Virus record (IMG/VR): IMGVR_UViG_3300009506_000152
Location: 1 to 28,351 of that record
Direction: 5' to 3' (one strand)
DNA length: 28,351 nucleotides
Source: a virus
Made by a program: the position numbers and the translations under genes. This document shows positions 3,966 to 28,351 of this stretch, piece by piece; within the stretch, counting starts at the first letter, position 1, and the number at the start of each line of letters is the position of its first letter. The notes beneath the pieces are model-generated. The model did no database searches, was not told where the DNA came from, and worked only from the letters and a program-made list of their open reading frames with translations.

Positions 3966-3978
3966 GGAGGGGAACAAA

Positions 3979-7702: not shown

Positions 7703-8419
7703 ATGGGCTATCTCAGACCCGCACAGGTAGACGAGATCGAGAACGAGAAGTCGGTTCTCGAACGCACCCTCCAGTCCCGCGACGTGCAGGACCGCGGAAA
7801 CATCAATGCGCACATCCGACGCATCGACAAGGAGTTGGCCGAGAAGGCACCTCCGGATCTGACGCCCGAGGAGCGGGATCAGAAGGCCAAGGAGTGCCAG
7901 ATGATCGAGGAGCGCCTGCTCCCGTCCATGCCTTCGGACGAGGAGATGCGGCGCAACCCGGCTGGAGCCACCGGCAAGCACATGCGCTGGGAGAAGCTCG
8001 CGAAGGCGAAGGATCGCTTTCCAGAGGGTGAGATCTTCCGCTGGAAGGACAACCAACTCGCGCTTCACAAGGGTGACAACGATCCCGACGTGGCGAATTT
8101 CGAGCGGCTTCGACCGTTGCACAATCATGCCTCGATGCTGGGTGCGCAGATTTCCGGACAGCAGTACTTCGGGACGAATCCCTCGCAGGCCTTCCTCGAT
8201 GGCTACGACCGGACCTTCGGGAATGGAAATGGTCAACCCAATGAAGAAGAGACCTCCACGGCACCGCGTGCGGCCAGAAAGCGTTCATCGAGGCGCAAGA
8301 AGTCGACCGAAGCGGAAAAGAAGTTGACTCCAATGCCCTGTGGAAAGATGCTGGGACCGACAGGCAGGCATTTTCACGTGGCGAAATGTGATGTGTGCCA
8401 GGAGGCGATGAAGGAGTAG
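7703..8419 (+). CDS. Coiled-coil protein with C-terminal Cys/His zinc-like motif
   Basis: A 238-residue protein with a clear GAGGAGAGAG ribosome site. Residues 1-70 are charged helices (EIENEKSVLERTLQSRD, RRIDKELAEK). A middle section carries MRWEKLAKAKDRFPEGEIF and FERLRPLHNHASMLGAQI. Residues 175-215 are a very basic, Ser/Lys-rich linker. The last 30 residues contain C-GKMLGPTGRHFHVAK-C-DV-C, a likely zinc knuckle. I know of no named family. Its position among structural genes and helical make-up suggest a virion or assembly factor. The basic linker plus zinc knuckle could bind nucleic acid. Confidence 0.6.
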   Translation: MGYLRPAQVDEIENEKSVLERTLQSRDVQDRGNINAHIRRIDKELAEKAPPDLTPEERDQKAKECQMIEERLLPSMPSDEEMRRNPAGATGKHMRWEKLAKAKDRFPEGEIFRWKDNQLALHKGDNDPDVANFERLRPLHNHASMLGAQISGQQYFGTNPSQAFLDGYDRTFGNGNGQPNEEETSTAPRAARKRSSRRKKSTEAEKKLTPMPCGKMLGPTGRHFHVAKCDVCQEAMKE

Positions 8420-12917: not shown

Positions 12918-13363
12918 TGGCGCTCTCGGCATCGAAGACCTGGGTCGCAGGAGAAGTGCTAACTGCCAGTGACCTGAACGGTGAGTTCTCGAATATCTAC
13001 TCCAATGGAGAGGATCTTGGCTGGCCCGCCACGAAAGCGAAGGATTTAGATGGACAGCAGTTCACGCTGGATGCAGATGGTGATTCGACACTCACAGCGG
13101 ATACGGACGACCGGGTCGACATCGCACTCTCAGGCACGGATCTCTTTCGCTTCGATGGAACCGCGACGACGCCCGTCAATGGGCTCGACTTCGTGGCTGG
13201 TGCGACGGGAACAGCGGTTTCTATAGAGGCAGTCAGTGGTACGGACTCCAATGTCAACATCGAGCTCACGCCATTGGGTACCGGCACGGTCACGATCAAT
13301 GGCGGAACGATCTATCTGGAGGAGGATGCCCAGCATATCCTCTCTTCTCAGGTTTTTGGGTGA
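12917..13363 (+). CDS. Short fibre-type protein, tail-associated
   Basis: A 148-residue protein whose ATG overlaps the nozzle stop by one base. The N-terminus (MALSASKTWVAGEVLTASDL, then NGEFSNIYSNGED) is a widely seen phage fibre attachment sequence; similar starts sit at the head of long fibres. The rest is repetitive Asp/Thr/Gly beta (FTLDADGDSTLTADTDDRVD), typical of fibre shafts, ending in TIYLEEDAQHILSSQVFG. Normally such a module continues into a receptor-binding tip; here it stops, so it may be a short spike or a base for another fibre. It probably attaches to the nozzle. Confidence 0.65.
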   Translation: MALSASKTWVAGEVLTASDLNGEFSNIYSNGEDLGWPATKAKDLDGQQFTLDADGDSTLTADTDDRVDIALSGTDLFRFDGTATTPVNGLDFVAGATGTAVSIEAVSGTDSNVNIELTPLGTGTVTINGGTIYLEEDAQHILSSQVFG

Positions 13364-13371
13364 GGTAGACG

Positions 13372-13719
13372 ATGGCAACCTACTCTAAGGTATTCCTGTC
13401 CGGTGGGACGGGCGACGGGCGTGGAATCAAGGTGGCGGCGACGTCCACGCCGGGGACCGCGATTCACACAGCGCACGCGACGGCCACGGACGAGATCCAC
13501 CTGTGGGCCTGGAATTCGGATTCTGCCGATCGCCTGCTCACGATCGAGTTTGGAGACGTGACCGACCCGGATGACATCATCGAGTTTACTGTGCCCACGC
13601 AGGACGGGCTCTATCTGGTGGTGCCGGGCCTCATCCTGTCCAACAGCGACGTGGTGCGCGCCTTCGGGGCCGCGGGCAATGTCCTCGTCATCAACGGGTA
13701 CGTCAATAGGATCACGTAA
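13372..13719 (+). CDS. Small conserved-type virion beta protein
   Basis: A 115-residue protein with TGAGGTAGACG before ATG 13372. It is all beta: YSKVFLSGGTGDGRGIKVAA, then EIHLWAWNSDSADRLLTIEFG, IIEFTVPTQDGLYLVVPGL and a closing VLVINGYVNRIT. This pattern, a small sandwich with LTIEFG and VVPGL strands, recurs next to fibre genes in many tailed-phage genomes I recall, usually unnamed. A collar, plug or fibre-connecting role is likely. The stop overlaps the next ATG by one base (TAATGG), so it is coupled to the fibre gene. Confidence 0.6.
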   Translation: MATYSKVFLSGGTGDGRGIKVAATSTPGTAIHTAHATATDEIHLWAWNSDSADRLLTIEFGDVTDPDDIIEFTVPTQDGLYLVVPGLILSNSDVVRAFGAAGNVLVINGYVNRIT

Positions 13720-14621
13720 TGGGACTTCGCGGATCACTTGGCAAGCTCGCCTATCGGCACTTCATCCGGTACGAGGACATCCGACCGGCACCCACTGCAG
13801 CCGAGCTTCCGACACTCTCCTATACCCAGCTCCCCCTCCCGCGTGGGTATCTCGCGGGGTGCACTACCTCGAACAACGGCGTGGACGCCGACCACGATAT
13901 CGACATCTCGGCTGGTCAGGCGCGAAACACAGGGGACTCGGCAAACATCCTGATTACCTCCTCAATCACGAAGCGAATTGATGCGACCTGGGCATCGGGT
14001 ACGGGCAATGGAGGCCTCAACGATACGGATCAGCCGGTGGGGAACAACACCTGGTATCACATCCACGCGCTGGGTAAGTCGACCAATGACGCCTATGACG
14101 TGGGGTTCGATACGAGCGCCTCGGCTGCGAATCTCCTAGCCGACACTGCTGTGGTAGCAGCAGGATTTACTACCTACCGCAGGATTGGGTCGGTCCTGAC
14201 GGATGGAACCGCGAACATCCTGGCCTTCGTGCAGACCGGGAACCACTTCGAATGGCCTGACCCAATCGGAGATGCCTTCACTACGGTCACACAGAATTCC
14301 GAACTGACCCACACGCTTTCGGGATCTCCGTTGGGCGTTTCTGTGATCGCTGACATCCAGTTCCATATCACGGACACGGATGCAATCACCGCAGGCTACA
14401 TCTACTCGACCAATGTTACAGGAGAGACTCCGAACGTCACCAACACGGCCCCGTACAGCATGCTTCGAAACGGTGGTACGCCATCGCACGATACCCGTAG
14501 ATTCCTGATGCGGGTGGACACCTCCGCACAGATCAATGCTTATTTTGCATGTTCCTCTACGATCAACAATGTGAACTACGCTGTATTTGGATGGTTCGAC
14601 GATCTCGGGAGACATGATTGA
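13719..14621 (+). CDS. Tail fibre/appendage protein
   Basis: A 300-residue beta-rich protein starting one base inside the preceding stop. It opens with a Pro-rich adaptor stretch (YEDIRPAPTAAELPTLSY). The central pattern is a frequently encountered phage fibre module: GYLAGCTTSNNG, DHDIDISAGQARNTGDSANI, then TWYHIHALGKSTNDAYDVGF, YRRIGSVLTDGTANI. The C-terminal third (residues 215-300) is Ser/Thr-rich with FLMRVDTSAQINAYF. No enzyme motif is visible. It probably forms a fibre or the outer part of a tail appendage and may contact the receptor. It ends at TGATGG, overlapping the next gene by one base. Confidence 0.65.
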   Translation: MGLRGSLGKLAYRHFIRYEDIRPAPTAAELPTLSYTQLPLPRGYLAGCTTSNNGVDADHDIDISAGQARNTGDSANILITSSITKRIDATWASGTGNGGLNDTDQPVGNNTWYHIHALGKSTNDAYDVGFDTSASAANLLADTAVVAAGFTTYRRIGSVLTDGTANILAFVQTGNHFEWPDPIGDAFTTVTQNSELTHTLSGSPLGVSVIADIQFHITDTDAITAGYIYSTNVTGETPNVTNTAPYSMLRNGGTPSHDTRRFLMRVDTSAQINAYFACSSTINNVNYAVFGWFDDLGRHD

Positions 14622-15037
14622 TGGCTCGCCCCGATATCAAAGTTAGACTTGCTCAAAATGACGAGGCTGAAATTGTCCAGGCACTGTTCGATGATGTCTT
14701 CCAGATGGGCGACTGGAATCCGACCTTTGAAGCGATCTTTCCGCATTGGCTCGTGGCAGAGATCGCAGGAGAAGTCGTAGGAACCATCAACATTCGCATC
14801 TCGATGCCTATCTCAAGCATCGAGTTCCTCTCGATCGATCCGAAACTTCGGCTGGTTGATCGAACGCGCGTGACGCGGATGCTGCTCGATTCGGCCATCG
14901 CCATCTGTGGAGCAAGTGGATCACAGGGGGTCTCGTCCATGATCCCTGATGAACTGGAGTCTTATCGCGAGATGCTGGAAGACTGCGGGCATCAGATTGG
15001 CAGTCACGGCGTCATGGTAGTTGGGAGAATCCGATGA
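14621..15037 (+). CDS. GNAT-like N-acetyltransferase
   Basis: A 138-residue protein; ATG 14621 is preferred over the TTG one codon earlier. The order of elements fits the GNAT fold: KVRLAQNDEAEIVQALFDDV (beta1-alpha1), WLVAEIAGEVVGTINIRI (beta2-3), IEFLSIDPKLRL (beta4), a helix TRVTRMLLDSAIAICG, and CGHQIGSHGVMVVGRI (beta6-7). GNAT enzymes move an acetyl group from acetyl-CoA to an amine. The usual pyrophosphate-binding R/QxxGxG/A loop after beta4 reads RLVDRT here, so CoA binding may be weak or lost. It sits between fibre genes in the late operon, suggesting that a virion or host protein is the substrate if the enzyme is active. Confidence 0.6.
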   Translation: MARPDIKVRLAQNDEAEIVQALFDDVFQMGDWNPTFEAIFPHWLVAEIAGEVVGTINIRISMPISSIEFLSIDPKLRLVDRTRVTRMLLDSAIAICGASGSQGVSSMIPDELESYREMLEDCGHQIGSHGVMVVGRIR

Positions 15038-17062: not shown

Positions 17063-19013
17063 TGGAACTGCAGGACTGGGCCTCTCCGACGAGGAACGGC
17101 GACGCGCGTTTGAGCGGTCCAACACGGTACTGGGGCTTGATGAATCTCAGCTCGACCTGAACCCCACTGGCGGGCCTGCTTCGAAGTCACTGGGGCTTGC
17201 ACCTCAAGCATCGAATGCGCCCAGCTTTGAAGATCTCTTCGGCAACACCGAGCTTGGAATCCTCCCCAAGGAGGTCGGCACGGGACCAGGCCAGGTCGAT
17301 CCCGAGGCGATCTTCCAGGCGGGTGGGCCGCAGGCGATTCAAGAGACGCAGCGCACCTCGATGGGAATCGGCACGGCGCTCGACCTGACCGACGCGCTCC
17401 TCGGCAAGACCACGGGGACGCAGCGCGCCGACCCGGTCGATCTCAATGGGTTCCAGCAGACCCTGCTGTGGATCTCGGACATCCAGGCCGCGGTGCAGGG
17501 AAGAGCCCTGCCCAGCGCGCAGCTCGACCAGCAGAAATGGAGACTGAACCAGCTGGAGTACAAGAACAACACCCAGTCGATCATCTCCGGCCTCTCCGCG
17601 CTGAAGGAATTCACCGACCTGACCTCGCGCCTCCCACGCGAGGATCGCGTGGCCGCGATGGCTACGCAGGTTCCTCGGTTCGAGAAGATGGTGCCTGGCT
17701 TTGGGGCCATCGGGCTCGCACTGGCCGACTCGCCCACGGAGGCCGACGCCTTCCACGCTTTCCTAGCTACGCCCAACCTGTTCGGCGGGACCGCTGCTGA
17801 GCAGTTGATGAACTACGTCACGGCGCTGGGCGCTGTGGACCCCGCGCGAGCTGGCACGATCATCGAGAATGCGATCAAGGAGGGCGGGATCATCTCGCAG
17901 TCGATCGATGCCATTGGGCCTTCGGTGATCTCCGGGACGCTCGACGCACAGATCGAGACGGGCCGTAGCATGGGCGGCGAGATGGCTGACTTCGCTAATC
18001 GGATCGCCAACGCGGACGACATCACACCCGAGGAGTACATCAATTGGGAGAGCAAGCTCCCAGAGAATGTGAAGGTCAAGGATGCCTACCTCGAGTCGCT
18101 GGGTCGATCGCCAGAGCGGTACCTGACGGTGTTTCCTGGCATGAAGACTGCCGAACTCGAGGAGCTCCAGCGCAAGCATGAAGTTGAAGGAGAATTCACT
18201 AACCCCATCGCTATGATCAATACAAAGGATCCGACCCAGATTGTGGGTGGCCCTGCTCAGGGCAAGCGCATTCGGAATCTCCCTGACTACTACGTTCCGA
18301 TGAACATCACCCACGAGGCCCTCTTCCCGAAGGAGGCCGGCGTGGCTGGCCCCTTCGGTCCGCCTACGAAGGCGACGACCACGGACGTCCAGAAAGAACT
18401 GATCAACCTTCGTCGGAACGCCGACGAACTGATCGGGATCCAGGAGGGCTACCGTCGAAATCTCCAGACCTATCCAGCCAAAGCTTGGAATCTCTATCTC
18501 AGCGCGAAGAGCGGATTTGGTGGGGAACTCTCTCCGGAAGACCAGGAGTTCCGACGTCGGTTCATCGGGAACCGCACCCGAACGGTCACCTCGCTGTCGG
18601 CGGTTTTGAATCGGTTGAGTGGTGCTGCGGTCAGCGAGCACGAGATGAAGCGGATCGAGCTGACGCGCCCCGCAATGGGGGACGCTCCAGACGAGTTCGA
18701 GTACAAACTCGATACTTCGATCGCACTGAACCAATTCGCTGTCGCCAGGATGAATGCATGGCGACTGATCGGTGGTCCGGACTCAAGGATGGAGCATGCC
18801 TTCAATCTTCGCAGGGAGGATGTTCGCAACATCGTTCAGGACACGGGGCGCGCGATCCGGCATCGCTATCGCGGACTGTATCCGAACGCAACAGAGGAGC
18901 AGGTCACCCGAGCCACATCGAAGGCTCTCGCGAAGGAGTTCGGTGTTCGAGAGCAAGATCTCCTGCCCATCATCAGTCAGGATCCCGATCGGACATTTGA
19001 AGGGGGAGGTTGA
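17055..19013 (+). CDS. Large internal/ejection virion protein
   Basis: A 652-residue protein starting at TTG 17055: AGGAGA at 17045-17050 is four bases upstream and no ATG occurs in this frame for about 100 codons. The first 110 residues look disordered. The centre is helical with ISGLSALKEFTDLTSRLP and AGTIIENAIKEGGIISQSI. The last third carries QEFRRRFIGNRTRTVTSLSA, NRLSGAAVSEHEMKRIELTR and PDEFEYKLDTSIALNQFAVA, a pattern I associate with C-terminal domains of large podovirus internal proteins. No lytic transglycosylase motif is visible. It would be packed inside the head and leave with the DNA. The adjoining upstream and downstream genes encode similar Gly/Ala-rich proteins. Function is inferred from position and composition. 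Confidence 0.65.
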   Translation: MADGTAGLGLSDEERRRAFERSNTVLGLDESQLDLNPTGGPASKSLGLAPQASNAPSFEDLFGNTELGILPKEVGTGPGQVDPEAIFQAGGPQAIQETQRTSMGIGTALDLTDALLGKTTGTQRADPVDLNGFQQTLLWISDIQAAVQGRALPSAQLDQQKWRLNQLEYKNNTQSIISGLSALKEFTDLTSRLPREDRVAAMATQVPRFEKMVPGFGAIGLALADSPTEADAFHAFLATPNLFGGTAAEQLMNYVTALGAVDPARAGTIIENAIKEGGIISQSIDAIGPSVISGTLDAQIETGRSMGGEMADFANRIANADDITPEEYINWESKLPENVKVKDAYLESLGRSPERYLTVFPGMKTAELEELQRKHEVEGEFTNPIAMINTKDPTQIVGGPAQGKRIRNLPDYYVPMNITHEALFPKEAGVAGPFGPPTKATTTDVQKELINLRRNADELIGIQEGYRRNLQTYPAKAWNLYLSAKSGFGGELSPEDQEFRRRFIGNRTRTVTSLSAVLNRLSGAAVSEHEMKRIELTRPAMGDAPDEFEYKLDTSIALNQFAVARMNAWRLIGGPDSRMEHAFNLRREDVRNIVQDTGRAIRHRYRGLYPNATEEQVTRATSKALAKEFGVREQDLLPIISQDPDRTFEGGG

Positions 19014-19015
19014 AC

Positions 19016-21235
19016 ATGGCTCCCCAAGATCCCGTCAAGGTCGACCCGAACCTCGAACTTCCGCCGCTCTCCCAGGCTGACCTCGAGACGCTCTTCCCAG
19101 GCAAGCGAGCTGCAGAACAAGCGGCAGCTGCCGACCAAGCGCGCCCGCTCGACGTTTTTCGCGGTGCGGGGACAGCAGAATCTCCCGATGAGAAATCAGC
19201 CCGCGCCGACCGCCAACTCTACGATTACATCGCCACAGAGCAGCAGCGCGGGCGCGAACGCTCTCAGCTGACGCCTTTCGACGCCGACGGTGCCGCTTTT
19301 GCAGCGACCCTTGCTGGATCGACGGCTATTGCTCCGTTTGGGCCGGGGATTGCCGCTGCAGTAGGCGGCGGCGTACGCGGCGCTGCAGCCATGATGGCCG
19401 TGCAGGGAGGAACCGCTGGCTTCCTCGAACTGGTGACACGATTTCTCAACGGCGAGCCGATGGAAGAGGCGCTCCCGAAGGCTGGAGAAACAGCAGGGAT
19501 CTTCGCACTTGCGGAGGGAGTCGGTCCTGTGCTGGCTACAGCAGGAGGAAAGACCATCGGTTCGATCCGCAGTGTTGTTCACAAAGGACGCCAGGTCATC
19601 CGTGCCCTCCGTGGGGTCAAGCCGCTTCCGGAGATCGAGCGGATCGCGTCGACTTCTCACCCGTTTGCAAACTTCCTTGAGCCGGAGGCTCAACAGGTCT
19701 ACGAGACGGTGACAGAAGTTGGCGGCATCCCGATGCCCAGCCAACTGATCCAGCACGACATCATCGATGTCACCCAGAACATCCTCGACCGCTCGTTTAC
19801 GGCGGGCGCTGGACAGCGCGCCGTCCGCGCGCTGAATGAGAAGGCGCTCACACAGGCCATGAATGAGGTCGTCGATAACCTCCCCCGCGTGGATGCCAGA
19901 TATGTCGGCGGGATGATCCAGGATGTCGTCACGGGCAGGTTGCAACAGATCAAGGGGGTCGCACAGGGATTCTACCGGCAAGCCGACAAGATTCTCGGGA
20001 AGACCAAGGAAGTCTCTCGTCAGGTGATCAGGGAAGTCCCTGCGGTCGGACAGAATGGCGCCCCGCTGCTCGACATGAACGGAAAGCCTGTCGTCCGGTC
20101 GGTGACCGAGACAATCACAGAAACCGTTCCGGAGAACGGCGTCAACTTCATCCCCTTGAAGGAGATGGCGAAGAAGGAGCTCGAACTCCTCGACAAGGGA
20201 CTCCACACAAATCCTGGGCTCGAGAAGATCCTCAAGGAGGTTCTCGAAAAGCCTGATACGGTCTTCTACTCCACCGCACAGCAAGTACGCACAGAACTCT
20301 TCGACATCAGTCAGCAGTTCGCGCGCGGCGCTGGAGACATCACACCCGCTTCCAAGCGTGCGGCCACGGCGATGACCACGCCGCTCACCCGAGAGATGAA
20401 GATCGCCGCCACGAAGGCAGGGCCGGAGGCGCGGCAGTACATCGATATGGCTGACAAGCTCTGGCGCGAAGAGATCCGCGGCGAGTTGACCCAGAAGTTC
20501 ATCACCAAGCTGGTGAACAACCAGGCCGACGATGTGCTCGACGCGATTCTCGTTCGCGGCAAGCCAGGTGACATCCGGATGATCCGCGACATCGTGATGA
20601 AGGAGAATCCGAAGGCCTGGGATGCCGTGCAGGGATCGTTCCTGCAGCGTCTGCTCTACGCCCACGCGGAAAAGCGGCTGATTGGCGATGGTACTCGGAT
20701 CGTAGGGTTCAATGCCAAGGAGCTTCTTGAGGATTTTGCGAGGATCCAGGGCACCGATGGGCGTGCGCTGAAGGAACTCTTTCCCAGCATGTACGACAAG
20801 GGAGGTCGGACGCTTTCCGGGTTCAAGCGGTATCTCCAAGCGCTGGAAACCCTGCAACGCGCGAATGAAGCAGGCGGTCGTGGTGGCGTGTTCTTCCAAC
20901 TGAGTCAGTCTGGAGCTATCGGACTTCTGGTCGGTGCTGGAACGGCATACGTCACGGATAGTCCCGTGACTGGTGGTGCTGCTGGAGTCCTAGCCTCATC
21001 TGGATACCTGATCGCCCCAAATGTGGTTGGCAGGATGTTTCGAAACCCCGAGATCGTTTCGTGGCTTGTGCAAGGCGCGAAGCACGCTCCCGGAACCGTT
21101 CCCGCTGCGCGTGCGGCTATCGCGGTTCTCGGCCTGATGGTGCGCAACAACCTCCTCGAGGGGGACGATGCGAAGCGTGCCGTCAACCAGATGCAGAACC
21201 TCAACGACTTCTTGAAGGAACAAGAAGGGCGATGA
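19016..21235 (+). CDS. Large ejection protein with hydrophobic Gly/Ala segments
   Basis: A 739-residue protein. ATG 19016 follows GGGGGAGG at 19002-19009 with good spacing, so the upstream in-frame TTG at 19010 is not preferred. Residues about 85-135 are Ala/Gly-rich and hydrophobic (AAFAATLAGSTAIAPFGPGI, then AAAVGGGVRGAAAMMAVQGG), and residues about 640-720 contain similar stretches (QSGAIGLLVGAGTAYVTD, ASSGYLIAPNVVGRMF, AARAAIAVLGLMV). Between them are long charged helices. The combination of a soluble helical body with membrane-active ends matches ejection proteins such as P22 gp16 or T7 gp16 that cross or line the host membrane. No enzyme motif is seen. It ends in an overlap with the next gene (GATGAG). 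Confidence 0.68.
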   Translation: MAPQDPVKVDPNLELPPLSQADLETLFPGKRAAEQAAAADQARPLDVFRGAGTAESPDEKSARADRQLYDYIATEQQRGRERSQLTPFDADGAAFAATLAGSTAIAPFGPGIAAAVGGGVRGAAAMMAVQGGTAGFLELVTRFLNGEPMEEALPKAGETAGIFALAEGVGPVLATAGGKTIGSIRSVVHKGRQVIRALRGVKPLPEIERIASTSHPFANFLEPEAQQVYETVTEVGGIPMPSQLIQHDIIDVTQNILDRSFTAGAGQRAVRALNEKALTQAMNEVVDNLPRVDARYVGGMIQDVVTGRLQQIKGVAQGFYRQADKILGKTKEVSRQVIREVPAVGQNGAPLLDMNGKPVVRSVTETITETVPENGVNFIPLKEMAKKELELLDKGLHTNPGLEKILKEVLEKPDTVFYSTAQQVRTELFDISQQFARGAGDITPASKRAATAMTTPLTREMKIAATKAGPEARQYIDMADKLWREEIRGELTQKFITKLVNNQADDVLDAILVRGKPGDIRMIRDIVMKENPKAWDAVQGSFLQRLLYAHAEKRLIGDGTRIVGFNAKELLEDFARIQGTDGRALKELFPSMYDKGGRTLSGFKRYLQALETLQRANEAGGRGGVFFQLSQSGAIGLLVGAGTAYVTDSPVTGGAAGVLASSGYLIAPNVVGRMFRNPEIVSWLVQGAKHAPGTVPAARAAIAVLGLMVRNNLLEGDDAKRAVNQMQNLNDFLKEQEGR

Positions 21236-21666
21236 GGGTCGAGCTCGCAGTGGTCGCCCTCCTGATGGCGACGTCTGCCTTCGCGGACCAGGATCCCGAC
21301 TTCACCCGCGTGAACAACCGCTGCAACTCCTGGGCGTTGTGTAAGCAGCAGTCGGCCACAGGGATCTGTGTCTCGCATCGCAACGGAGATGAGCTGGTGC
21401 TCGACGTTGGTAAGTTTGCCCACTACACCTTCTACTCCGTCGAGTCGACCGCCAGCAGTTACTCCTGCGACATCTATACGAACACCGATGGATACGATGC
21501 CTCGGTCGCTGACAGCACCGCGACCGATCAGGTCAATACTACCTCGATCACAGACGAGGCTCCGGTCTACACCATGCAGGTGCTCCTGCAGAAGCTGTGG
21601 ATCAATTGCACCGAGGTGGCAGACAACGTAGTGAACATCGATGTGGTGGTATGCGTGGAGAACTGA
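21232..21666 (+). CDS. Secreted Cys-rich small protein (Sec signal peptide)
   Basis: I start this gene at ATG 21232, which shares four bases with the preceding stop and has AGAAGGG just upstream. The 144-residue product begins MRVELAVVALLMATSAFA, a textbook Sec signal with an AFA cleavage site before DQDPD. The mature part has six cysteines (in NRCNSWALCKQQ, GICVSH, SYSCDIY, INCTEV and VVCVEN), enough for three disulfides, and beta-type strands (FAHYTFYSVESTASS). The protein would be exported to the periplasm or beyond. It is the first of four consecutive signal-peptide genes in the late operon. I recognise no family. Confidence 0.7.
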   Translation: MRVELAVVALLMATSAFADQDPDFTRVNNRCNSWALCKQQSATGICVSHRNGDELVLDVGKFAHYTFYSVESTASSYSCDIYTNTDGYDASVADSTATDQVNTTSITDEAPVYTMQVLLQKLWINCTEVADNVVNIDVVVCVEN

Positions 21667-21669
21667 CGG

Positions 21670-23343
21670 ATGAAGAGGTATCTCGCTCTTGCGATCATCT
21701 CGTTCTACTTCGCATTAATCTTCGGATCTATTGCTCAAGAAGGAATCTGGGAAGATTCTCTTCCGCTTGATCCGATTGGCGTTGTAGATGCAGGAAGCAT
21801 CACGGGTACCGATCCCGGAACGGACCTCACCGCAGACCTAGAAGAAGAACAGCAAATTGGAGACGTCGACGTTGCAAGTTCTGTGACGTCTGACGATTCG
21901 GTACTAATAGGGAGCTCGCCTACCGCAGCTGCGTGGATTAAGCTTCCTACCGGTGGTACAGATGGGTGCTCCGGTACGAATGACAAATCACTTTATAAAG
22001 CATCCACCAATGCCTTTAGTTGCGGGACCGATCAGAATTCCAATTCTTTCGGCGTGATCGATCCGCCAACGGGTGACACGTTAACGGCGCTTTCCCCCGG
22101 AGATACGCTCAACATTGGCGCTTCAGGTGGAATCACCGTCAGCGGAAACTCTGCCTATCAGTTGCTCACCTTTTTGTTCGACGTGAATTCGACTCGCTTC
22201 GGAACGCAATCGACTTTCACAGATCTAGACGCTACGCCAGATGTTTCCAACTACAACCTATGGATCACGAACACCAGTGACGTGACCATCACAGGCTTTG
22301 ACAACGGCGGTGCTGGACAGATGCTCTTCATCGAGAGCAACGGAAACATTACTTACGATTGTACCGGCGCTTCGCTGGATTGTGGCTCTACAGATCTCGT
22401 TACCGAGGACGGTGATATCACGATTTGGCACCGGATGAATTCCGGCTGGCATCTGGCTGGTTTTTTCGACGCTTCCGAAGACGCGAATTTGAAGATCGCT
22501 GACTACTTGCCGCTTGCCGGGTGGGGATCAAAGACCACCTTCGCGGCAGCGGACACGAGCCCCGACGTGTGCGGAGGCGGCTTGCGCTTCGCTACTACGG
22601 CATCGGACACCGTGACCATCGACAAATTCGATTGCGCAGCTGGGGTGGTCGATGGCTTTCGGTGGCAGGTACAGAGCCAAGGAGAAGTCACTTACGACTG
22701 TGTAACTTCATCCCTAATTTGCGGTGCTTTTGATCTCGAAACGTACAAAGGGGATGTCACGATTTGGGAGTTTGATGGCGCCTTCGGCTTAGCACGGATC
22801 GTTGGGTTTGTTCCAGGCATCTATTCTCCGGCTATTACGATTGCTCCAGATTTCATTCTCAAAGAACACACAACGGGGGTCACTCCAGATCCGGGGCCGG
22901 GATTCGGAGTGCTTTGGATCGATAGCGGCTATTCACCCCAACGCCTTATGTTCACTGACGACGACGACAATCATCACGTATTGGCGTACACGAGCAACTA
23001 TCGCGAATGCCAGCAGAGCATCACGACCGAGCAAGCCGGTGACATCCTGATGTGCGCAAAAGCGCAAGCTACTGTGACGCTTGTGGAACTCGATTGCACC
23101 GCGTTGGGGTCCACCACGCCGGTTGCTGAAATTGTCGAGGTAGTGGAATGCGATAGTCAAGGTGCTAACTGCGTGGGGTCTGGATTCACGATTCAAGCCG
23201 ACTTGTTGGAAAACAACTATCCAGATAGCTCGGGCACGGACTGGACGATCGATACTCTGGATTGGTGGGGTTTGAAGCTAACTTCGTTCACTACACAAGC
23301 TGATTTTCTCCACTGTCAGATAGCATTCACGGAGCACGAATGA
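21670..23343 (+). CDS. Exported fibre-like protein with two Cys-paired beta repeats
   Basis: A 557-residue protein. MKRYLALAIISFYFALIFGS is a signal peptide with cleavage likely near SIA/QEG. Residues 40-165 are beta with GDTLNIGASGGITVSG; residues 177-270 and 285-382 are two copies of one domain (TPDV, then TITxFD or TIDKFD, then a DC-six residues-CG pair, then GDITIW/GDVTIW and a closing GFFDAS/GFVPG). This module is common in phage tail fibres without signal peptides. The C-terminal 160 residues add more cysteines, 14 in all. Codon use differs from neighbouring genes (more A/T-rich, TTA and CTA leucines), hinting at separate acquisition. It is coupled to the next gene by a 4-base overlap. 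Function unknown; an exported decoy, adhesin or receptor-modifying fibre is possible. Confidence 0.7.
   Translation: MKRYLALAIISFYFALIFGSIAQEGIWEDSLPLDPIGVVDAGSITGTDPGTDLTADLEEEQQIGDVDVASSVTSDDSVLIGSSPTAAAWIKLPTGGTDGCSGTNDKSLYKASTNAFSCGTDQNSNSFGVIDPPTGDTLTALSPGDTLNIGASGGITVSGNSAYQLLTFLFDVNSTRFGTQSTFTDLDATPDVSNYNLWITNTSDVTITGFDNGGAGQMLFIESNGNITYDCTGASLDCGSTDLVTEDGDITIWHRMNSGWHLAGFFDASEDANLKIADYLPLAGWGSKTTFAAADTSPDVCGGGLRFATTASDTVTIDKFDCAAGVVDGFRWQVQSQGEVTYDCVTSSLICGAFDLETYKGDVTIWEFDGAFGLARIVGFVPGIYSPAITIAPDFILKEHTTGVTPDPGPGFGVLWIDSGYSPQRLMFTDDDDNHHVLAYTSNYRECQQSITTEQAGDILMCAKAQATVTLVELDCTALGSTTPVAEIVEVVECDSQGANCVGSGFTIQADLLENNYPDSSGTDWTIDTLDWWGLKLTSFTTQADFLHCQIAFTEHE
22198..22479 (+). repeat. 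Cys-paired beta repeat, copy 1
   Basis: Residues 177-270 of the 557-residue exported protein. Anchors: ATPDV, TITGFD, ITYDC-six-CG, GDITIW and GFFDAS. Confidence 0.7.
22522..22815 (+). repeat. Cys-paired beta repeat, copy 2
   Basis: Residues 285-382 of the same protein. Anchors: TSPDV, TIDKFD, VTYDC-six-CG, GDVTIW and GFVPG. It has an extra cysteine pair (VCGG, FDCA) absent from copy 1. Confidence 0.7.
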
Positions 23344-24461
23344 GGAAAGCAGAGAAGATCCTACTCATCCTCGCCGCGCTTGCAGCGCTTGGCGCGACGC
23401 TGACCCACGGCCTCGGCTCCAAGACGGACGAGTATTTCTGCTCCTGGGAAGCCAGCACCTCCACCGTCGATTGCGACACGCCGCTAGCTAGCTTCTTCAC
23501 GGATATCGATACCGACTATGGGTCGGAAGTGGTTACTTCGGACTGGACTTTCAATGGGCCACTTGCACTTGGGGATACGTTCGATCTCGGCAATTTCGTA
23601 GCGATCGGAGCGGATACGACTCCGGCAGTCGATGCAAGCGTGCTCTACGAAGCGGATACTGCTCAAACGATTACTTCGCTTGACAGCATGGGCGTAGGGT
23701 GGCTCACGATCATCTATACCTCGATCGATGGCGTGATTTTTGATTGCACCACATCCTCCCTTTCTTGCGGAATCGCGGACATCACTACCGACACGGGTGA
23801 CGTGACGGTGTGGATTCGTGCTGGCAGCTCACCAAGTCGGCGGCTGATCTCGTGGTACGACGCGAGCGCGGATTACACCTACACACCGAATGAGCTGGGT
23901 AGCTCGCTCACCTCTTCGACCAATGACATCACCGCTACGAGCGGAGATCAAGTCTGCTTCGGGAACGGAACCGAAGACTTCTGCTTCGATCACGGGACTA
24001 GCAATCAGCTCCGTGTGGCGAGCAACACGGGTGTCAACAATATCAACTGGATGGGTTGGTCCCATACGACCACGAATCAGGCATCCCATCGCTGGAATAT
24101 GAACCAATGGAGCACCGCAAACCCCTCACTCACCAGCGCGAACCTCTCCACTGGAAACATCTCCACCTACACCTATGCGGGCAACGTCGAGGTGGAAATG
24201 GGCAGCGCTTCAGACGGCGCGCATGGCTGGATCTACGATCTCGACGGAACTGCGACGACAACATTCTGCGTGGATCCCGCTGTTGCGGATAGCTTCTACC
24301 TGCCTAATTCGGGCAGCGTCACGAAGTTGACGGCAGGTAACAAAGTCTGCGCTCCGACTGCTACCCTTGGAGCATACATCCATTATATCGGCATCGACAG
24401 CAACACGTGGTTGATCCTCGACCACTACCCGTATGATGCTTGGACAGATGGGGGAGCATGA
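23340..24461 (+). CDS. Exported fibre-like protein with one Cys-paired beta repeat
   Basis: A 373-residue protein overlapping the previous stop by 4 bases (ATGA). MRKAEKILLILAALAALGAT is a strong N-terminal hydrophobic signal with a basic start; cleavage is probably near residues 18-25. Residues 82-178 are a third copy of the repeat found twice in the upstream protein (TTPAV, TITSLD, VIFDC-six-CG, GDVTVW, SWYDAS). Residues 200-373 form a different beta region with QVCFGNGTEDFCFDHG, SHRWNMNQWSTANPS and a closing GAYIHYIGIDSNTWLILDHY typical of fibre-domain ends. Eight cysteines in total. It seems to be a sister of the preceding gene. No catalytic motif is seen. Confidence 0.7.
   Translation: MRKAEKILLILAALAALGATLTHGLGSKTDEYFCSWEASTSTVDCDTPLASFFTDIDTDYGSEVVTSDWTFNGPLALGDTFDLGNFVAIGADTTPAVDASVLYEADTAQTITSLDSMGVGWLTIIYTSIDGVIFDCTTSSLSCGIADITTDTGDVTVWIRAGSSPSRRLISWYDASADYTYTPNELGSSLTSSTNDITATSGDQVCFGNGTEDFCFDHGTSNQLRVASNTGVNNINWMGWSHTTTNQASHRWNMNQWSTANPSLTSANLSTGNISTYTYAGNVEVEMGSASDGAHGWIYDLDGTATTTFCVDPAVADSFYLPNSGSVTKLTAGNKVCAPTATLGAYIHYIGIDSNTWLILDHYPYDAWTDGGA
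23583..23873 (+). repeat. Cys-paired beta repeat, copy 3
   Basis: Residues 82-178 of the 373-residue exported protein. Anchors: TTPAV, TITSLD, VIFDC-six-CG, GDVTVW and SWYDAS. Shared across a gene boundary with copies 1 and 2, implying duplication or recombination between neighbours. Confidence 0.7.
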
Positions 24462-24811
24462 TGAGAACGCTGCTAATTCTTCTACTACTTGTGGGTGCTG
24501 CCTCTGCGCAGACCGCGCCGCAAACCTACGAAGTCACCATCACCGATCAAGATCAGCTCGACTCGCTCGTAGAAGTCTGCGATTACGTGCGGGTATGGGC
24601 GCGCAATCCGACCCCTTGGAACGCGAACGTCTGCGCGACCTACCTCGTGCTCTACGGTGGGCAGGCGTTTTGGGAGGATGCCGAAGCGGTGCTCGCTGAC
24701 CGAGCTGCGGCGCAGCGCAAGCGCGACTCCACCCGCAAGTTTGGCCGCATCCGTCCGACCGCCACCCCTGAGCCTACGACGCCGACACCAACACCGACCG
24801 CGGAGCCCTAG
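24461..24811 (+). CDS. Small exported protein with Thr/Pro C-terminal tail
   Basis: A 116-residue protein with signal peptide MRTLLILLLLVGAASA, cleaved before QTAPQ (ASA site). ATG 24461 is preferred over ATG 24458 because GGGGGAG at 24450-24456 is then four bases away. The mature part has one cysteine pair (EVCDYV and NVCATY) and a helical, charged section (ADRAAAQRKRDSTRKFGR). It ends in PTATPEPTTPTPTPTAEP, a flexible Thr/Pro spacer. There is no lipobox cysteine at the signal cleavage site, so it is not a lipoprotein. It closes the block of four exported proteins and adjoins the lysis genes. Function unknown. Confidence 0.68.
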   Translation: MRTLLILLLLVGAASAQTAPQTYEVTITDQDQLDSLVEVCDYVRVWARNPTPWNANVCATYLVLYGGQAFWEDAEAVLADRAAAQRKRDSTRKFGRIRPTATPEPTTPTPTPTAEP

Positions 24812-25096
24812 ATGGGAGAGCAGGTACATCACTGGATTGGAAGTACGCTCGACACCCTCTTGCTTACGGGAATCCTGATCACTGCGTTGGTGACAATCTT
24901 TCGGGCGGGACGTTGGTTCCAGGGTCTGATGGCATCGGTGGATCACATGAGTGATCGGCTCGACCGTCACAGCAGTAGCATCGAAACACTACACCGCACG
25001 CTGGAAGAGCATGTAACCGAAGAGACAACCCGCTTCGAAGACATCGAGAGGAAGATCGATCTCATCTGCACGCAGACCAACGGGAGTGGCCAATGA
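24812..25096 (+). CDS. Membrane-anchored coiled-coil protein, lysis-region
   Basis: A 94-residue protein starting directly after the previous stop. One membrane helix (about residues 13-30, LDTLLLTGILITALVTIF) is followed by a basic turn (RAGRW) and a coiled coil (residues 40-85, including SSSIETLHRTLEEHVTEETT). Its topology suits a holin partner, an inner-membrane spanin-like protein or a superinfection factor. Position between the exported block and the endolysin suggests a lysis role. The gene ends in a 4-base overlap with a second protein of the same architecture. No family is recognised with certainty. Confidence 0.58.
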   Translation: MGEQVHHWIGSTLDTLLLTGILITALVTIFRAGRWFQGLMASVDHMSDRLDRHSSSIETLHRTLEEHVTEETTRFEDIERKIDLICTQTNGSGQ

Positions 25097-25374
25097 GAAA
25101 ATGGCTCCTTGGGATCACTGGCGCCATCGTCCTTGGCCTTCTGGGATTTCTCGCAAGCGCCTTCGTAACGCATTGGGTCCAGGCTGGGGACGACCACCGG
25201 AAGATCCAGAGCGTCGAGGATCTCGCCATCGCGACCAACGCGCTCGCTAATGAACTGCACGAAATCCACGAGCAGCAGGACATCCGCGTTGAAGAACAGA
25301 AGCACCTGTGTCGCATCGGAAAGATCGAGGACGAGGAGTTCTGTCGCGAGATCGAGGCCGAGAAGGAGGACTGA
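25093..25374 (+). CDS. Second membrane-anchored coiled-coil protein, lysis-region
   Basis: A 93-residue protein overlapping the previous gene by ATGA. Residues 4-26 (WLLGITGAIVLGLLGFLASA, then FVTHW) form one membrane helix, followed by an acidic helical tail (SVEDLAIATNALANELHEIH) and a short end with C78 and C88 about ten residues apart. Layout matches its neighbour, suggesting an ancient duplication or a paired complex. It could be a holin or antiholin, as many small phage membrane proteins next to endolysins are. It overlaps the endolysin start by one base. Confidence 0.58.
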   Translation: MRKWLLGITGAIVLGLLGFLASAFVTHWVQAGDDHRKIQSVEDLAIATNALANELHEIHEQQDIRVEEQKHLCRIGKIEDEEFCREIEAEKED

Positions 25375-25793
25375 TGCCGCGCTTCGGGAAAGCCTCGCTC
25401 GACAAGCTCGCCACCTGCCACAGCGAGCTCCGGATCGTCTGCGGCGCGGTGATCCCCTACATGGACTTCACGATCATCTGGGGGGCGCGTGGAATGGAGC
25501 CCCAGAACGAGGCCTTCGCGAAGGGCTTCAGCCATGTACCCTGGCCGGAGTCGAAGCACAATGCGATTCCTCCTGACCTGTCCGATGCCGTCGACATCGC
25601 GCCGTGGCACACCGAACGTCCGCACATCCGCTGGAAGAATGAGAACGAGTTCATCTACCTGGCGGGTCGGATGATGCAAGCTGCGTCATCGTTGGGGATC
25701 AAACTTCGATGGGGTGGAGACTGGGATCGTGACCAGGATCTCTACGATGTGAACAAGCCCTTCGACTTGGGGCATTTCGAGAGGTACGAATGA
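25374..25793 (+). CDS. Endolysin, peptidase M15 (VanY/L-Ala-D-Glu type)
   Basis: A 139-residue enzyme starting at ATG 25374, with AAGGAGGA just upstream. The sequence follows M15C endolysins: SKHNAIPPDLSDAVDIAP holds zinc ligands H62 and D74, and LRWGGDWDRDQ with FDLGHFE near residue 134 gives the catalytic acid D131 and third ligand H134. Such peptidases cut cell-wall peptides, most often L-Ala-D-Glu. There is no signal peptide and no wall-binding domain, as is usual for small endolysins of phages of Gram-negative hosts; a holin must therefore provide access. The gene lies in the lysis module, before a 58-residue holin-like gene and spanins, supporting the call. Confidence 0.85.
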   Translation: MPRFGKASLDKLATCHSELRIVCGAVIPYMDFTIIWGARGMEPQNEAFAKGFSHVPWPESKHNAIPPDLSDAVDIAPWHTERPHIRWKNENEFIYLAGRMMQAASSLGIKLRWGGDWDRDQDLYDVNKPFDLGHFERYE

Positions 25794-25969
25794 TGGAGAA
25801 GAAGTGGTATCGAAGCAAGACCGTGTGGACGAACGCTCTGGGTGGCGTTGCGGTCATCATCCAGGCGGCTACCGGAACGCAGTGGCTCGACCCTGAGGTT
25901 CAGTCTGCAATTCTCGTGATTGCGAATCTTGTCTTGCGACTGTTCACGAAGACCGGGCTAATCGCCTGA
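25793..25969 (+). CDS. 58-residue holin-like protein
   Basis: A short gene from ATG 25793 to a TGA at 25967-25969, sharing one base with the endolysin stop. A further in-frame ATG lies at 25790. The product starts MEKKWYRSKTVWTNALGGVA, continues VIIQAATG, then LDPEVQSAILVIANLVLRLF and ends TKTGLIA. K(x)WYxSKTVWxN followed by two short hydrophobic segments (about 13-27 and 38-51) is a recurring phage pattern annotated as a small holin. It would assemble in the inner membrane and let the endolysin reach the wall. It overlaps the next start by one base. Confidence 0.7.
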   Translation: MEKKWYRSKTVWTNALGGVAVIIQAATGTQWLDPEVQSAILVIANLVLRLFTKTGLIA

Positions 25970-26214
25970 TGGTTCCCGCGATCGTCGCTGTCGTGATGGC
26001 CGCGGTGCTCGTCGGACTGTTCGCATTTCTCTGGGGCAAGACGACCGGGAAGAACGCAGAGAACAAAGCCATTCGCAAGGCGTTCGAGAACGCTGGACTC
26101 GCGAGGGAGGTGATGGATGAGATCCTGGCAGAGCCTTTGGATTCTCCTCATGGCCTGTTCGATGATTGGGTGTCGAACGGTGATGATCGTAAGGGTTCCT
26201 CCGCCTCCACCTGA
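25969..26214 (+). CDS. Inner-membrane spanin subunit, Rz-like
   Basis: An 81-residue protein with N-terminal membrane helix (VPAIVAVVMAAVLVGLFAFL) and then a charged helical tail (GKNAENKAIRKAFENAGLAR) facing the periplasm. It is short for an Rz protein. Its last 98 bases overlap the start of an Rz1-type lipoprotein gene in another frame, the overlapped Rz/Rz1 architecture seen in lambda-like and many other phages. Together the two would span the periplasm and fuse the inner and outer membranes in the last step of lysis. Identity is from architecture only. Confidence 0.68.
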   Translation: MVPAIVAVVMAAVLVGLFAFLWGKTTGKNAENKAIRKAFENAGLAREVMDEILAEPLDSPHGLFDDWVSNGDDRKGSSAST

Positions 26215-26365
26215 GCCCAGCACGCTGGTAGGCCTGCAGTGGGAAGAGAAGCACGATGAGTGCCACGGAGAGACGATCTACGAGTTGGCTCCTGCCGTCG
26301 GCACGTACATGGCTGAGGTGAAGCGGTACTTCAAGGGGTTGAAGGAGTTTGTGAAGGTGCCCTAG
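26117..26365 (+). CDS. Outer-membrane spanin lipoprotein, Rz1-like
   Basis: An 82-residue protein starting inside the Rz-like gene at ATG 26117, with GGGAGG about six bases upstream. The signal (MRSWQSLWILLMACSMIGC) ends in a lipobox, SMIGC, so C19 would be lipidated and the protein carried to the outer membrane. VRVPPPPPEP follows, the proline tract typical of Rz1. The mature part is longer than in lambda Rz1 and contains a helical, charged end (YMAEVKRYFKGLKEFVKV). It is the last gene of the rightward late operon. Confidence 0.75.
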   Translation: MRSWQSLWILLMACSMIGCRTVMIVRVPPPPPEPSTLVGLQWEEKHDECHGETIYELAPAVGTYMAEVKRYFKGLKEFVKVP

Positions 26366-26477: not shown

Positions 26478-26691
26478 GAAACTTCTCTGCCAGTTCATGC
26501 CACGTATCACTCTTGACCAAGAAGCACGGAATGCACCAGATATATTGCAAGCTGGCTGGTTCCATCTCGTTGGTGTCTGAGTGAAATGCTCCAACGACTT
26601 CACTCCCTACAGGTTTTCCACAGCGGGGGCAATCCGGTAGCCGTTCTTCTGGATGCGATGAAATCACCGATAGAACCAAATCCCTACTCAT
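26464..26691 (-). CDS. 75-residue zinc-ribbon protein coupled to integrase
   Basis: This minus-strand gene starts at ATG 26691, sharing ATGA with the integrase stop, and stops at 26464-26466. The product, MSRDLVLSVISSHPEE..., has a CPRC (C21, C24) and a CIPC (C53, C56) pair about 30 residues apart, a classic zinc ribbon, and ends in a basic helix (HELAEKFRKKK). Co-translation with integrase suggests a function in lysogeny or recombination, for example a directionality or regulatory factor. However, it lacks the winged-helix look of known excisionases. The Com-like protein at 2538 has a similar metal site, but the sequences are not clearly alike. Function unknown. Confidence 0.68.
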   Translation of the reverse strand: MSRDLVLSVISSHPEERLPDCPRCGKPVGSEVVGAFHSDTNEMEPASLQYIWCIPCFLVKSDTWHELAEKFRKKK

Positions 26692-27548
26692 AGATTCGCC
26701 CACCCCATGTCGACATCCTCTTCGATGTAGTGCGCGTAGTGCTTCTCCAGCACCTGCTGGGAGACCCCGAAGATCTCGCTGGCCTTGCGCAGGCTGATGC
26801 CGCCCGTGAGTGCCCAGCTGATTGCAGAGTGCCGCGTGCAGTGCAGCTTGAAGGGGCGCACACCTGCCGCATCGCGCACCCTGTTGAACTGCCTGCCCAC
26901 GGTGCGCTGGTCGAGGCCACCGAAGATCGCGATCCGCTTCCAGCGATTCCGGTCGATCTCGTAGGTGTTGTCGAGCAGTGCTCGAACTGTCGGGGACATC
27001 GGGAACCAACGCTCGCCGCCCCACTTCGTGCCCTTCTGGATGTTCCCATCCAGATCGAGCGCGCGATGGATGTGGATGCGCTTGCGCCGGTTGTCGACAT
27101 CCTCGTACTGCAACGCGAGGGCTTCACCACGACGCATTCCCGTAGCGAAGAGAAACTCGATGAAGTAGGAGAGCAGGAGTCTTTTCTCGTTCCCAACCGA
27201 GGTCGAGATGATCTTCTGCGCCTCCTCCTTCGTCCAGCACTCCACCCCGTTCGGCCCGCGCTTGAGTTCAGCGATCAGCTTGCCCAGCGGCAGGTGATCG
27301 GCGTGCCCGTTGAGGCCTGCGCGCAGAACCGAGAGGTACCGTGCGACGGTCACCTTGGAGAGCCCCTTCTCGAGGAGGCTGTTTCGAAATCGCTCGACCG
27401 CGCGCAGCGAGAGCTGGTCGGGCGTGAACTCGCCGAACTCTTCGTCGATCGTGTTGACCGGCGCGATGTTGGTAGCGTTGGTCCGCGCCGAGTCGATCGG
27501 GGCGCGGGTACGCTGCCAGTCCCGCATGAGGGCGTTGATTGTGGCCAT
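26688..27548 (-). CDS. int: Tyrosine-family site-specific integrase
   Basis: A 286-residue integrase starting at minus-strand ATG 27548 with GGGAGG (27556-27561) seven bases upstream. The frame is open further left of the start, but that stretch crosses the divergent promoter and HTH gene and has no integrase features. Residues 40-90 are a core-binding domain. The catalytic domain shows R139 (FATGMRRGEAL), K175 (KGTKWGGERW), HCTR with H236 and R239, and the nucleophile Y271 in KHYAHY. The usual His/Trp before it (LGHS) reads FGVS here, so position 262 is valine. The N-terminal arm-binding domain is short or absent. It would insert and excise the phage at an att site, not identified here. The stop overlaps the zinc-ribbon gene. 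Confidence 0.88.
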   Translation of the reverse strand: MATINALMRDWQRTRAPIDSARTNATNIAPVNTIDEEFGEFTPDQLSLRAVERFRNSLLEKGLSKVTVARYLSVLRAGLNGHADHLPLGKLIAELKRGPNGVECWTKEEAQKIISTSVGNEKRLLLSYFIEFLFATGMRRGEALALQYEDVDNRRKRIHIHRALDLDGNIQKGTKWGGERWFPMSPTVRALLDNTYEIDRNRWKRIAIFGGLDQRTVGRQFNRVRDAAGVRPFKLHCTRHSAISWALTGGISLRKASEIFGVSQQVLEKHYAHYIEEDVDMGWANL

Positions 27549-27562
27549 CGGTGATCCTCCCA

Positions 27563-27583
27563 TTTCGCGTTCCGCCCGCGAAA
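27563..27583 (-). promoter_or_regulatory. Inverted repeat in the integrase leader
   Basis: Perfect 7-bp arms TTTCGCG (27563-27569) and CGCGAAA (27577-27583), seven-base loop, lying between the predicted integrase transcription start (about 27585) and its ribosome site. It could be an RNA hairpin near the Shine-Dalgarno or a second repressor site. Confidence 0.5.
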
Positions 27584-27591
27584 ACAAAGCC

Positions 27592-27620
27592 AGTATACGG
27601 CTTGTCAACGGGCCTGACAA
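27592..27620 (-). promoter_or_regulatory. Predicted integrase promoter (minus strand)
   Basis: On the minus strand, TTGTCA (27620-27615) as -35 and TATACT (27597-27592) as -10 are separated by 17 bases; each matches the sigma-70 consensus at five of six positions. Transcription would start near 27585, about 37 bases before the integrase ATG. Confidence 0.65.
27602..27620. promoter_or_regulatory. Operator-like palindrome over the integrase -35
   Basis: TTGTCA (27602-27607) and TGACAA (27615-27620) form a perfect 6-bp inverted repeat with a 7-base centre (ACGGGCC). It covers the -35 and part of the spacer of the integrase promoter and lies about 33 bases upstream of the -10 of the HTH gene. 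The neighbouring HTH protein is the natural candidate to bind it. Confidence 0.55.
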
Positions 27621-27652
27621 CACCCCGTCCCTTGCGGGTTTTTCGGGCACTG

Positions 27653-27658
27653 TATAAG
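27653..27658 (+). promoter_or_regulatory. Predicted -10 of the HTH gene, leaderless
   Basis: TATAAG at 27653-27658 matches five of six consensus bases. A start about seven bases further would fall at 27664-27667, at or within three bases of the ATG at 27667. No -35 consensus is found at 15-18 bases upstream, so activation or a non-standard sigma contact may be needed. No Shine-Dalgarno is visible. Confidence 0.5.
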
Positions 27659-27666
27659 CTTCGTCA

Positions 27667-27957
27667 ATGGCCAAATACACCCCCGCGCCCGTGTTTGAGA
27701 GGGACGATCCTCGCACCGGGGACGAGTTCATCCGGGAGTGGGCAAAGCACGTCGGGTCCGTCCGAGCCGCGGAGCGGCTCGCCGGGATGTATCCGACCCA
27801 CCTGCACCAATGGCTGAAAGATCCCGACCGGCGCCTGAACCCGGAGACCACGCTGAAGCTCTCACGGGCCGCAGGGCTTCCCACAGAGGCGCTGGAGTAC
27901 CGTTTCCGGCCTATCAAGGATCTCGACTTCTGGTACTGGGTGGATGAGGTCAAGTGA
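27667..27957 (+). CDS. HTH regulator, Cro/CI-like, divergent from integrase
   Basis: A 96-residue protein with a helix-turn-helix at about residues 29-51 (GSVRAAERLAGMYPTHLHQW) followed by LNPETTLKLSRAAGLP, the helical core of small lambda-repressor-like proteins. The C-terminus (IKDLDFWYWVDEVK) is aromatic and may mediate dimerisation. No CI-type self-cleavage domain is present, so it is Cro-sized or a minimal repressor. It is transcribed away from the integrase with an operator-like palindrome between them. Its stop shares GTGA with the helicase start, so it heads the early operon. The leader appears to lack a ribosome site. Confidence 0.68.
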   Translation: MAKYTPAPVFERDDPRTGDEFIREWAKHVGSVRAAERLAGMYPTHLHQWLKDPDRRLNPETTLKLSRAAGLPTEALEYRFRPIKDLDFWYWVDEVK

Positions 27958-28351
27958 CTCTGTCGGAGCCCTCGGCGCCTCTGGGAATGACCCTCCGGGT
28001 GACCCCCACGGTGATTGTGATCGAGCTCCCGATATCCCGGTCCCACGAGATCAAACAGGTGCCCGGCGCACAGTGGCGACCAGGCGAGCGCGCGTGGCAC
28101 CTGCCCGCGACGCCTCACGCCGCTAGGGCGCTTCTGGCCGTTTTTCCGGCCCTGCAGGACGACCCACAGCTAAACGGCGTCCTCGAGCCCACCTACCCCG
28201 CCTACGTGGCGTCTGAGAACCTCCCCGGACATTTCCAGACCCAGCTCTGGGAGCATCAGCGCCGGGCCGTGGACGCCTGCTGGAAGCGGCCCGCCTCGAT
28301 GCTCGCGATGGAGATGCGGACGGGCAAGACGGCCTGCTCGATCGCACTGGC
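27954..28351 (+). CDS. SNF2-type helicase, N-terminal part (cut by window end)
   Basis: A GTG start at 27954 overlaps the HTH stop (GTGA); the frame stays open to the window end, 132 codons. The first 80 residues include GAQWRPGERAWHLPATPHAA, a pattern like the small HARP-type domain found before SNF2/helicase cores in phage proteins. Then QLWEHQRRAVDACW (Q-motif) and MLAMEMRTGKTACSI (Walker A, GKT near residues 124-126) begin the ATPase core. Such helicases remodel DNA forks or replace other replication helicases in temperate phages. The motor's remaining motifs are beyond the window. The start has no visible Shine-Dalgarno and likely depends on coupling to the HTH gene. Confidence 0.75.
   Translation, partial: MTLSEPSAPLGMTLRVTPTVIVIELPISRSHEIKQVPGAQWRPGERAWHLPATPHAARALLAVFPALQDDPQLNGVLEPTYPAYVASENLPGHFQTQLWEHQRRAVDACWKRPASMLAMEMRTGKTACSIAL

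Follow-up and report, generated by a model that had tools for sequence, protein, structure and literature searches.

Predicted exported, cysteine-rich proteins with tailspike-like modules in the late operon of a podovirus-type phage

The late operon and genes A through D

Why should a phage late operon carry, between its ejection protein and lysis genes, four consecutive genes whose products all begin like secreted proteins? The window (the whole 28,351-nucleotide stretch analysed, IMG/VR virus record IMGVR_UViG_3300009506_000152) has late genes in podovirus-type order: portal (PHROG 1216), major capsid protein (MCP), adaptor, nozzle/stabilisation-type protein and fibre genes, followed by cysteine-free ejection-type proteins, the four genes in question (here A through D), and the lysis genes. 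A preliminary description placed the four genes at 21232-24811 with 6, 14, 8 and 2 encoded cysteines, and coordinates, order and counts were all correct on recheck. The features are as follows.

12917-14621, + strand: probable virion fibre locus of this phage (ORFs 12917-13363, N-terminal anchor-like; 13372-13719; 13719-14621)
19010-21235, + strand: ejection-type protein upstream of A, 741 aa, no cysteine, overlapping the beginning of A by its final 4 bases
21232-21666, + strand: gene A, 144 aa (126 aa after cleavage), 6 Cys, pI about 4.1, without known family
21670-23343, + strand: gene B, 557 aa, 14 Cys, two module copies (aa ~175-273 and ~280-388) and a cysteine-rich C-terminal region
23340-24461, + strand: gene C, 373 aa, 8 Cys, one module copy (aa ~92-178)
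24458-24811, + strand: gene D, 117 aa, 2 Cys, Pro/Thr-rich C-terminal tail, without known family; an alternative start at 24461 is possible
24812-26365, + strand: lysis region downstream of D
24812 and 25093, + strand: two small membrane proteins of the lysis region
From 25374, + strand: endolysin (PHROG 465, M15-like)
25790, + strand: holin-like gene
25969 and 26117, + strand: overlapping genes, inner-membrane spanin-like (25969) and lipoprotein spanin-like (26117)
26688-28118, strand opposite to the late operon: integrase

ATGA overlaps place the starts of A, C and D on the preceding stop codons, three bases separate the A stop from the B start, and the gene after D begins directly at the D stop; these overlapping and adjoining starts indicate that the N-terminal sequences discussed below are the true N-termini. 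The spanin-like gene pair indicates a Gram-negative-type host, and the host is not narrowed beyond such an envelope because MCP relatives are found in metagenome-assembled genomes (MAGs) of several phyla.

Close homologues of A, B and C were not found in IMG/VR (by peptide-pattern scan and module profile), and tblastn against 50,697 phage records gave none for B or C; B is absent from 20 related records. Sequence searches of the PDB with B and C gave nothing useful, and A has no similarity to the exported protein of the related locus L010.

We note three other features of the window. Its fibre locus seems to be split into three ORFs, while L010 has a single 573-aa fibre (18005-19726), the start and end of which are matched by the 12917 and 13719 products, respectively. 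A glycosyltransferase-like gene that encodes cysteines lies in the structural operon (7019-7693), and among the first relatives gathered its only homologue is in L010 (50%). A GNAT-acetyltransferase-like gene (14618-15037) lies between the fibre and ejection genes, a position that is kept in many relatives.

Predicted export signals and cysteines

The N-termini were scored with a custom n/h/c-region scorer, not SignalP, which permits an n-region net charge of zero; a stricter form missed A, which has a Glu in its n-region, and the control rates given here are from the relaxed form. Predicted cleavage sites are SAFA↓DQ in A, GSIA↓QE in B and AASA↓QT in D, all with short h-regions and good -3,-1 positions. 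C has a basic n-region and a strong h-region, and its site is less certain (LGA↓TL or THG↓LG), so that its N-terminus could be a membrane anchor. The Sec-type N-termini that the preliminary description had assigned to all four proteins, with AFA, SIA-like and ASA sites in three, were thus recovered by this scorer, as clearly cleavable signals in A, B and D and as an ambiguous one in C. Shuffled N-termini reach a passing score in 0.2-0.6% of trials, none of the other late structural genes of the window passes, and only 1 of 474 conserved late-gene homologues in the relatives does so, that one probably through a mis-set start. Signal-like matches in the relatives L073/L074, L084, L097 and L102 were left uncounted, since they appear to be conserved genes (homologues of 3922-4701 or 7703-8419) with wrong starts. 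The mature A through D proteins have no second transmembrane segment (the highest 19-residue Kyte-Doolittle mean is at most 1.43), and A, B and C are strongly acidic (pI about 4.1). Sec export of the four proteins is a well supported prediction. None has a lipobox with a lipidated +1 cysteine, the first cysteines being residues 31, 100, 34 and 41, respectively; without such an outer-membrane anchor, placement on the cell surface would require lysis or a host secretion system.

None of the cysteines of A through D falls within a signal region, and several are close neighbours (B 231/238 and 344/351, C 136/143 and 34/45), which fits local disulphides. In this phage and its relatives (gathered as described below) cysteine makes up 2.7% of the exported proteins versus 0.64% of the conserved late proteins. 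The preliminary description had stressed that all four counts are even; they are, and four even counts by themselves are weak evidence (1 in 16). Across the lineage all 11 complete mature exported proteins, A through D among them, have an even count, compared to 62% of non-exported late proteins with two or more cysteines, so the chance of such a run is 0.0005 at one half each and about 0.005 at the control rate; cleavage points in the relatives were picked by eye, and we take this as supporting evidence only. Even counts as stand-alone proof of export were rejected because of that 62%. A conserved 8-cysteine protein encoded at 6086-7006, found in many relatives, has no signal peptide, another indication that even counts alone do not imply export. 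Together, these sequence features make disulphide bonding of A through D a well supported expectation.

A tailspike-like module and its relatives

B and C share a module, some 80-100 residues long and marked by a conserved C-x6-C motif, which is present twice in B and once in C (C vs B, 38% identity over 88 aa). An AlphaFold model of the module built from a three-row alignment reached pLDDT 80 and pTM 0.76 (one of five runs was good), and Foldseek matched it to phage proteins in BFVD (best E 1.8e-7), some of them tail spike and tail fibre entries. Against the PDB it matches the tailspike 24qj (Z 8.5, rmsd 3.0 over 88 residues), CBA120 TSP4 (Z 6.3), T4 gp9 (Z 5.8) and the secreted proteases CpaA (6o38; Z 9.1, rmsd 4.3 over 98 residues) and StcE (4dny). 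The top PDB matches are mostly phage receptor-binding or spike proteins, though Z values of this size can reflect a common arrangement. Residues 191-249 of B resemble PF25692 (Phage_depo_C) at 18.1 bits, below the cut-off of 25 (E 0.0038). A single-sequence model of the C-terminal 132 residues of B was unusable (pLDDT 33). Pfam and PHROGs searches recognised no virion-attachment N-terminal domain in A through D, which have a signal-type segment in that place; nor did these searches match spanin or SAR endolysin features, a catalytic domain or a Pfam enzyme family.

The module profile of B and C also matches a virion fibre of the related locus G006 (L035:6379-6816) at E 1e-5, with no match among reversed ORFs; in that fibre both cysteines of the C-x6-C motif are replaced. 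The module fold and this homology support a fibre-like nature for B and C. The fibre-like character given in the preliminary description is therefore supported for these two proteins and only conjectural for A and D; D has a Pro/Thr-rich tail and no fibre signature.

Relatives were gathered by MCP, initially 24 and then 80 related IMG/VR loci, with five loci in bacterial MAGs; none of the lineage members found is cultured. A through D are absent from all of them, but exported, cysteine-rich proteins recur, so that the set has not been seen elsewhere while its theme appears to be shared. Two relatives have different exported, cysteine-rich proteins that are beta-helix-like, and one of these occupies the A-D slot. 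This is in G001: its ejection-protein gene is followed directly by a gene for a beta-helix-like protein of 571 aa, which begins with a hydrophobic segment and has 14 mature cysteines. Further upstream, the late operon of G001 encodes a 143-aa protein with a signal peptide and 10 cysteines. L107 has two adjoining signal-bearing proteins with 6 and 12 mature cysteines, and the exported proteins of L029 and L107 resemble right-handed beta-helices by sequence. The L051 case is a signal peptide followed by a protein with matches to tail-fibre PHROGs (E 3e-25); further signal-bearing cases are found in L082, L048 and L025, the last two with incomplete proteins. In MW202785 the gene in the A-D slot is a tailspike gene by PHROG match (tail spike, E 6.5e-11) and by annotation, and in G007/G008 the slot encodes fibre-like proteins; in other relatives nothing lies there, or else a fibre or tailspike that lacks a signal. 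In T7 the corresponding slot is that of the tail fibre. One related contig (G024; L114:9044-9514) encodes a signal-bearing 8-cysteine protein that looks by eye like an HNH-type nuclease; an exported nuclease would be unusual.

A second fibre domain shows the same sharing. A virion-anchored fibre in L099 shares its C1q-like head with the signal-bearing L051 protein (52% identity over 149 residues), and the N-terminal part of this fibre is 59% identical to the window's 12917 product. A scan of IMG/VR for such heads gave 80 loci with 61 complete proteins, 58 of which have ordinary N-termini and three signal-like ones (L131, which is the same as L051, L132 and L195). In L132 (2537-3447) two small adjoining signal-bearing proteins, the second with the C1q-like fibre head, lie in a phage structural region with an MCP of Pfam GP7 just upstream. 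L212 (2790-5820; IMG/VR 3300014656_004515), and likewise L195, encodes three products in a row with signal-like N-termini, the first a tail protein of the nozzle/stabilisation type (phrog_3287, E 6.4e-24) and the next two fibre-like; a signal on a core tail protein would be very odd, and L195 is one 6.4-kb fragment. Counted by eye, cysteines in these cases beyond the lineage number two in each L132 protein, six in the mature L195 nozzle-type protein and one in the small L195 fibre-like gene. Fibre-type domains thus appear, from the relatives' sequences, to have switched repeatedly between virus particle and export. It was fair to call signal peptides on fibre-like phage proteins unexpected, and the occurrence of the same modules on ordinary virion fibres of relatives sharpens that point.

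Possible roles and known systems

Operon position, N-terminal signals, cysteine enrichment, the shared tailspike-like module and the sharing of modules and heads with relatives' virion fibres were computed directly; from these we infer actual export, disulphide bonds, ligand and role. Our first choice, held tentatively, is that A through D are Sec-exported late proteins, of which B and C, and probably A, bind receptors or glycans and act as a late receptor mask or decoy. The four proteins would leave the cytoplasm through the host Sec pathway late in infection and would fold and form disulphides in the periplasm; in B and C, probably with A, tailspike/fibre-type beta-sandwich modules would have had their virion anchor swapped for a signal peptide. 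Given the position immediately upstream of the lysis genes, we propose that they accumulate just before lysis, and breakage of the envelope would then expose or free them. Their most likely ligands would be the surface structures bound by the phage family's own fibres, and the effect would be to keep progeny off debris and already infected cells. This choice is guided by the established benefit of phage exclusion proteins, protection from adsorption to infected cells and lysed fragments (PMC9586334). Known exclusion proteins are described as early products (PMC9586334), and the late expression of A through D argues against ordinary early superinfection exclusion.

In relatives the A-D slot serves receptor binding, and this counts against a mask or decoy in that it would fit a virion part equally well; also weighing against it are the unclear cleavage site of C, the missing lipobox and a fibre character that is supported for B and C alone. 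B and C, with A and D as helpers, could be receptor-binding proteins of the virion that mature in the periplasm and join DNA-filled heads once holin and spanins open the envelope. The tailspike of MW202785 and the fibre-like proteins of G007/G008 in this slot, the T7 tail fibre as well, and the signal-like N-termini of the L195/L212 nozzle-type protein and its two fibre-like neighbours speak for such an appendage, and the nature of the slot together with the L195 contig keeps late virion decoration in consideration. We nevertheless think it distinctly less probable than the mask or decoy: no precedent was found among tailed phages, a probable virion fibre locus is already present at 12917-14621 of the window, no attachment domain was recognised in A through D, and L195 is a single short fragment. 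The broader proposal, that receptor-binding tail parts of this podovirus lineage and of others are Sec-exported, disulphide-bonded, matured in the periplasm and joined to the virion only at lysis, is a long shot, and if true it would mean that the assembly of a tailed phage is partly extracytoplasmic.

It is unlikely that, instead of masking receptors, the exported proteins work as enzymes or adhesins on polymers outside the cell or on neighbour cells, for example in a depolymerase-like way that clears capsule or biofilm for the progeny. The module does resemble beta-sandwiches of tailspike depolymerases (24qj) and secreted proteases, and the L029 and L107 proteins look like beta-helices, but it is a binding or linker fold rather than a catalytic helix, fold likeness shows no function, and A through D carry no enzyme match. 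That the hydrophobic N-termini are membrane-insertion or virion-anchoring segments, with the proteins retained by the particle or the inner membrane, would suit C and the G001 protein, which have no clean cleavage site; the signals of A, B and D, the cysteine enrichment and the near absence of such N-termini from the lineage's conserved virion proteins make this quite improbable. The integrase gene suggests that the phage may be temperate, and the missing recognisable homologues and the G+C content of B (52% vs 60%) are frequent traits of moron genes; even so, surface proteins that benefit the host in the prophage state are the least probable of these explanations, since A through D are translationally coupled within a late operon that should be silent in a lysogen.

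Fibre modules seem to move between virion-anchored and exported proteins, within the lineage and likewise in environmental phages unrelated to it. Phages may thus encode a so far overlooked protein class whose site of action, at lysis, would be the cell surface or the medium. It becomes possible to ask by experiment if soluble receptor-binding proteins are released by phages and if virion parts of any tailed phage fold in the periplasm.

The preliminary description knew of no named system with this layout, and within capped searches of an incomplete literature we found none either. A close likeness is to phage tailspikes and tail fibres (PF25692-type beta-sandwich; CBA120 TSP4, Solidus gp83, T4 gp9), which B and C resemble in module fold and modular build and A through D in position between ejection and lysis genes; the differences are the signal peptides, the paired cysteines, the missing recognised virion-attachment domain and the sub-cut-off Pfam match. 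PblA and PblB of the streptococcal phage SM1 are tail proteins that reach the surface of a Gram-positive host; they lack a signal sequence, and lysis proteins bring about their release. The cell-surface destination is common to them and, by prediction, to A through D, whereas the signal sequence is found only in the latter. The C1q-like fibre heads of environmental phages (PF00386-like, phrog_15750) are not present in A through D, but appear to have undergone the same re-targeting in the three signal-like cases among 61. T5 Llp-type exclusion lipoproteins are likewise phage-encoded and exported, and share the capacity, putative for A through D, to block a receptor and stop adsorption to infected cells or fragments (PMC9586334). 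T5 Llp itself is small and sits in the outer membrane as a lipoprotein, and proteins of its type are described as early products (PMC9586334), whereas A through D have no lipobox and are coupled to late genes, and B and C are large and fibre-like.
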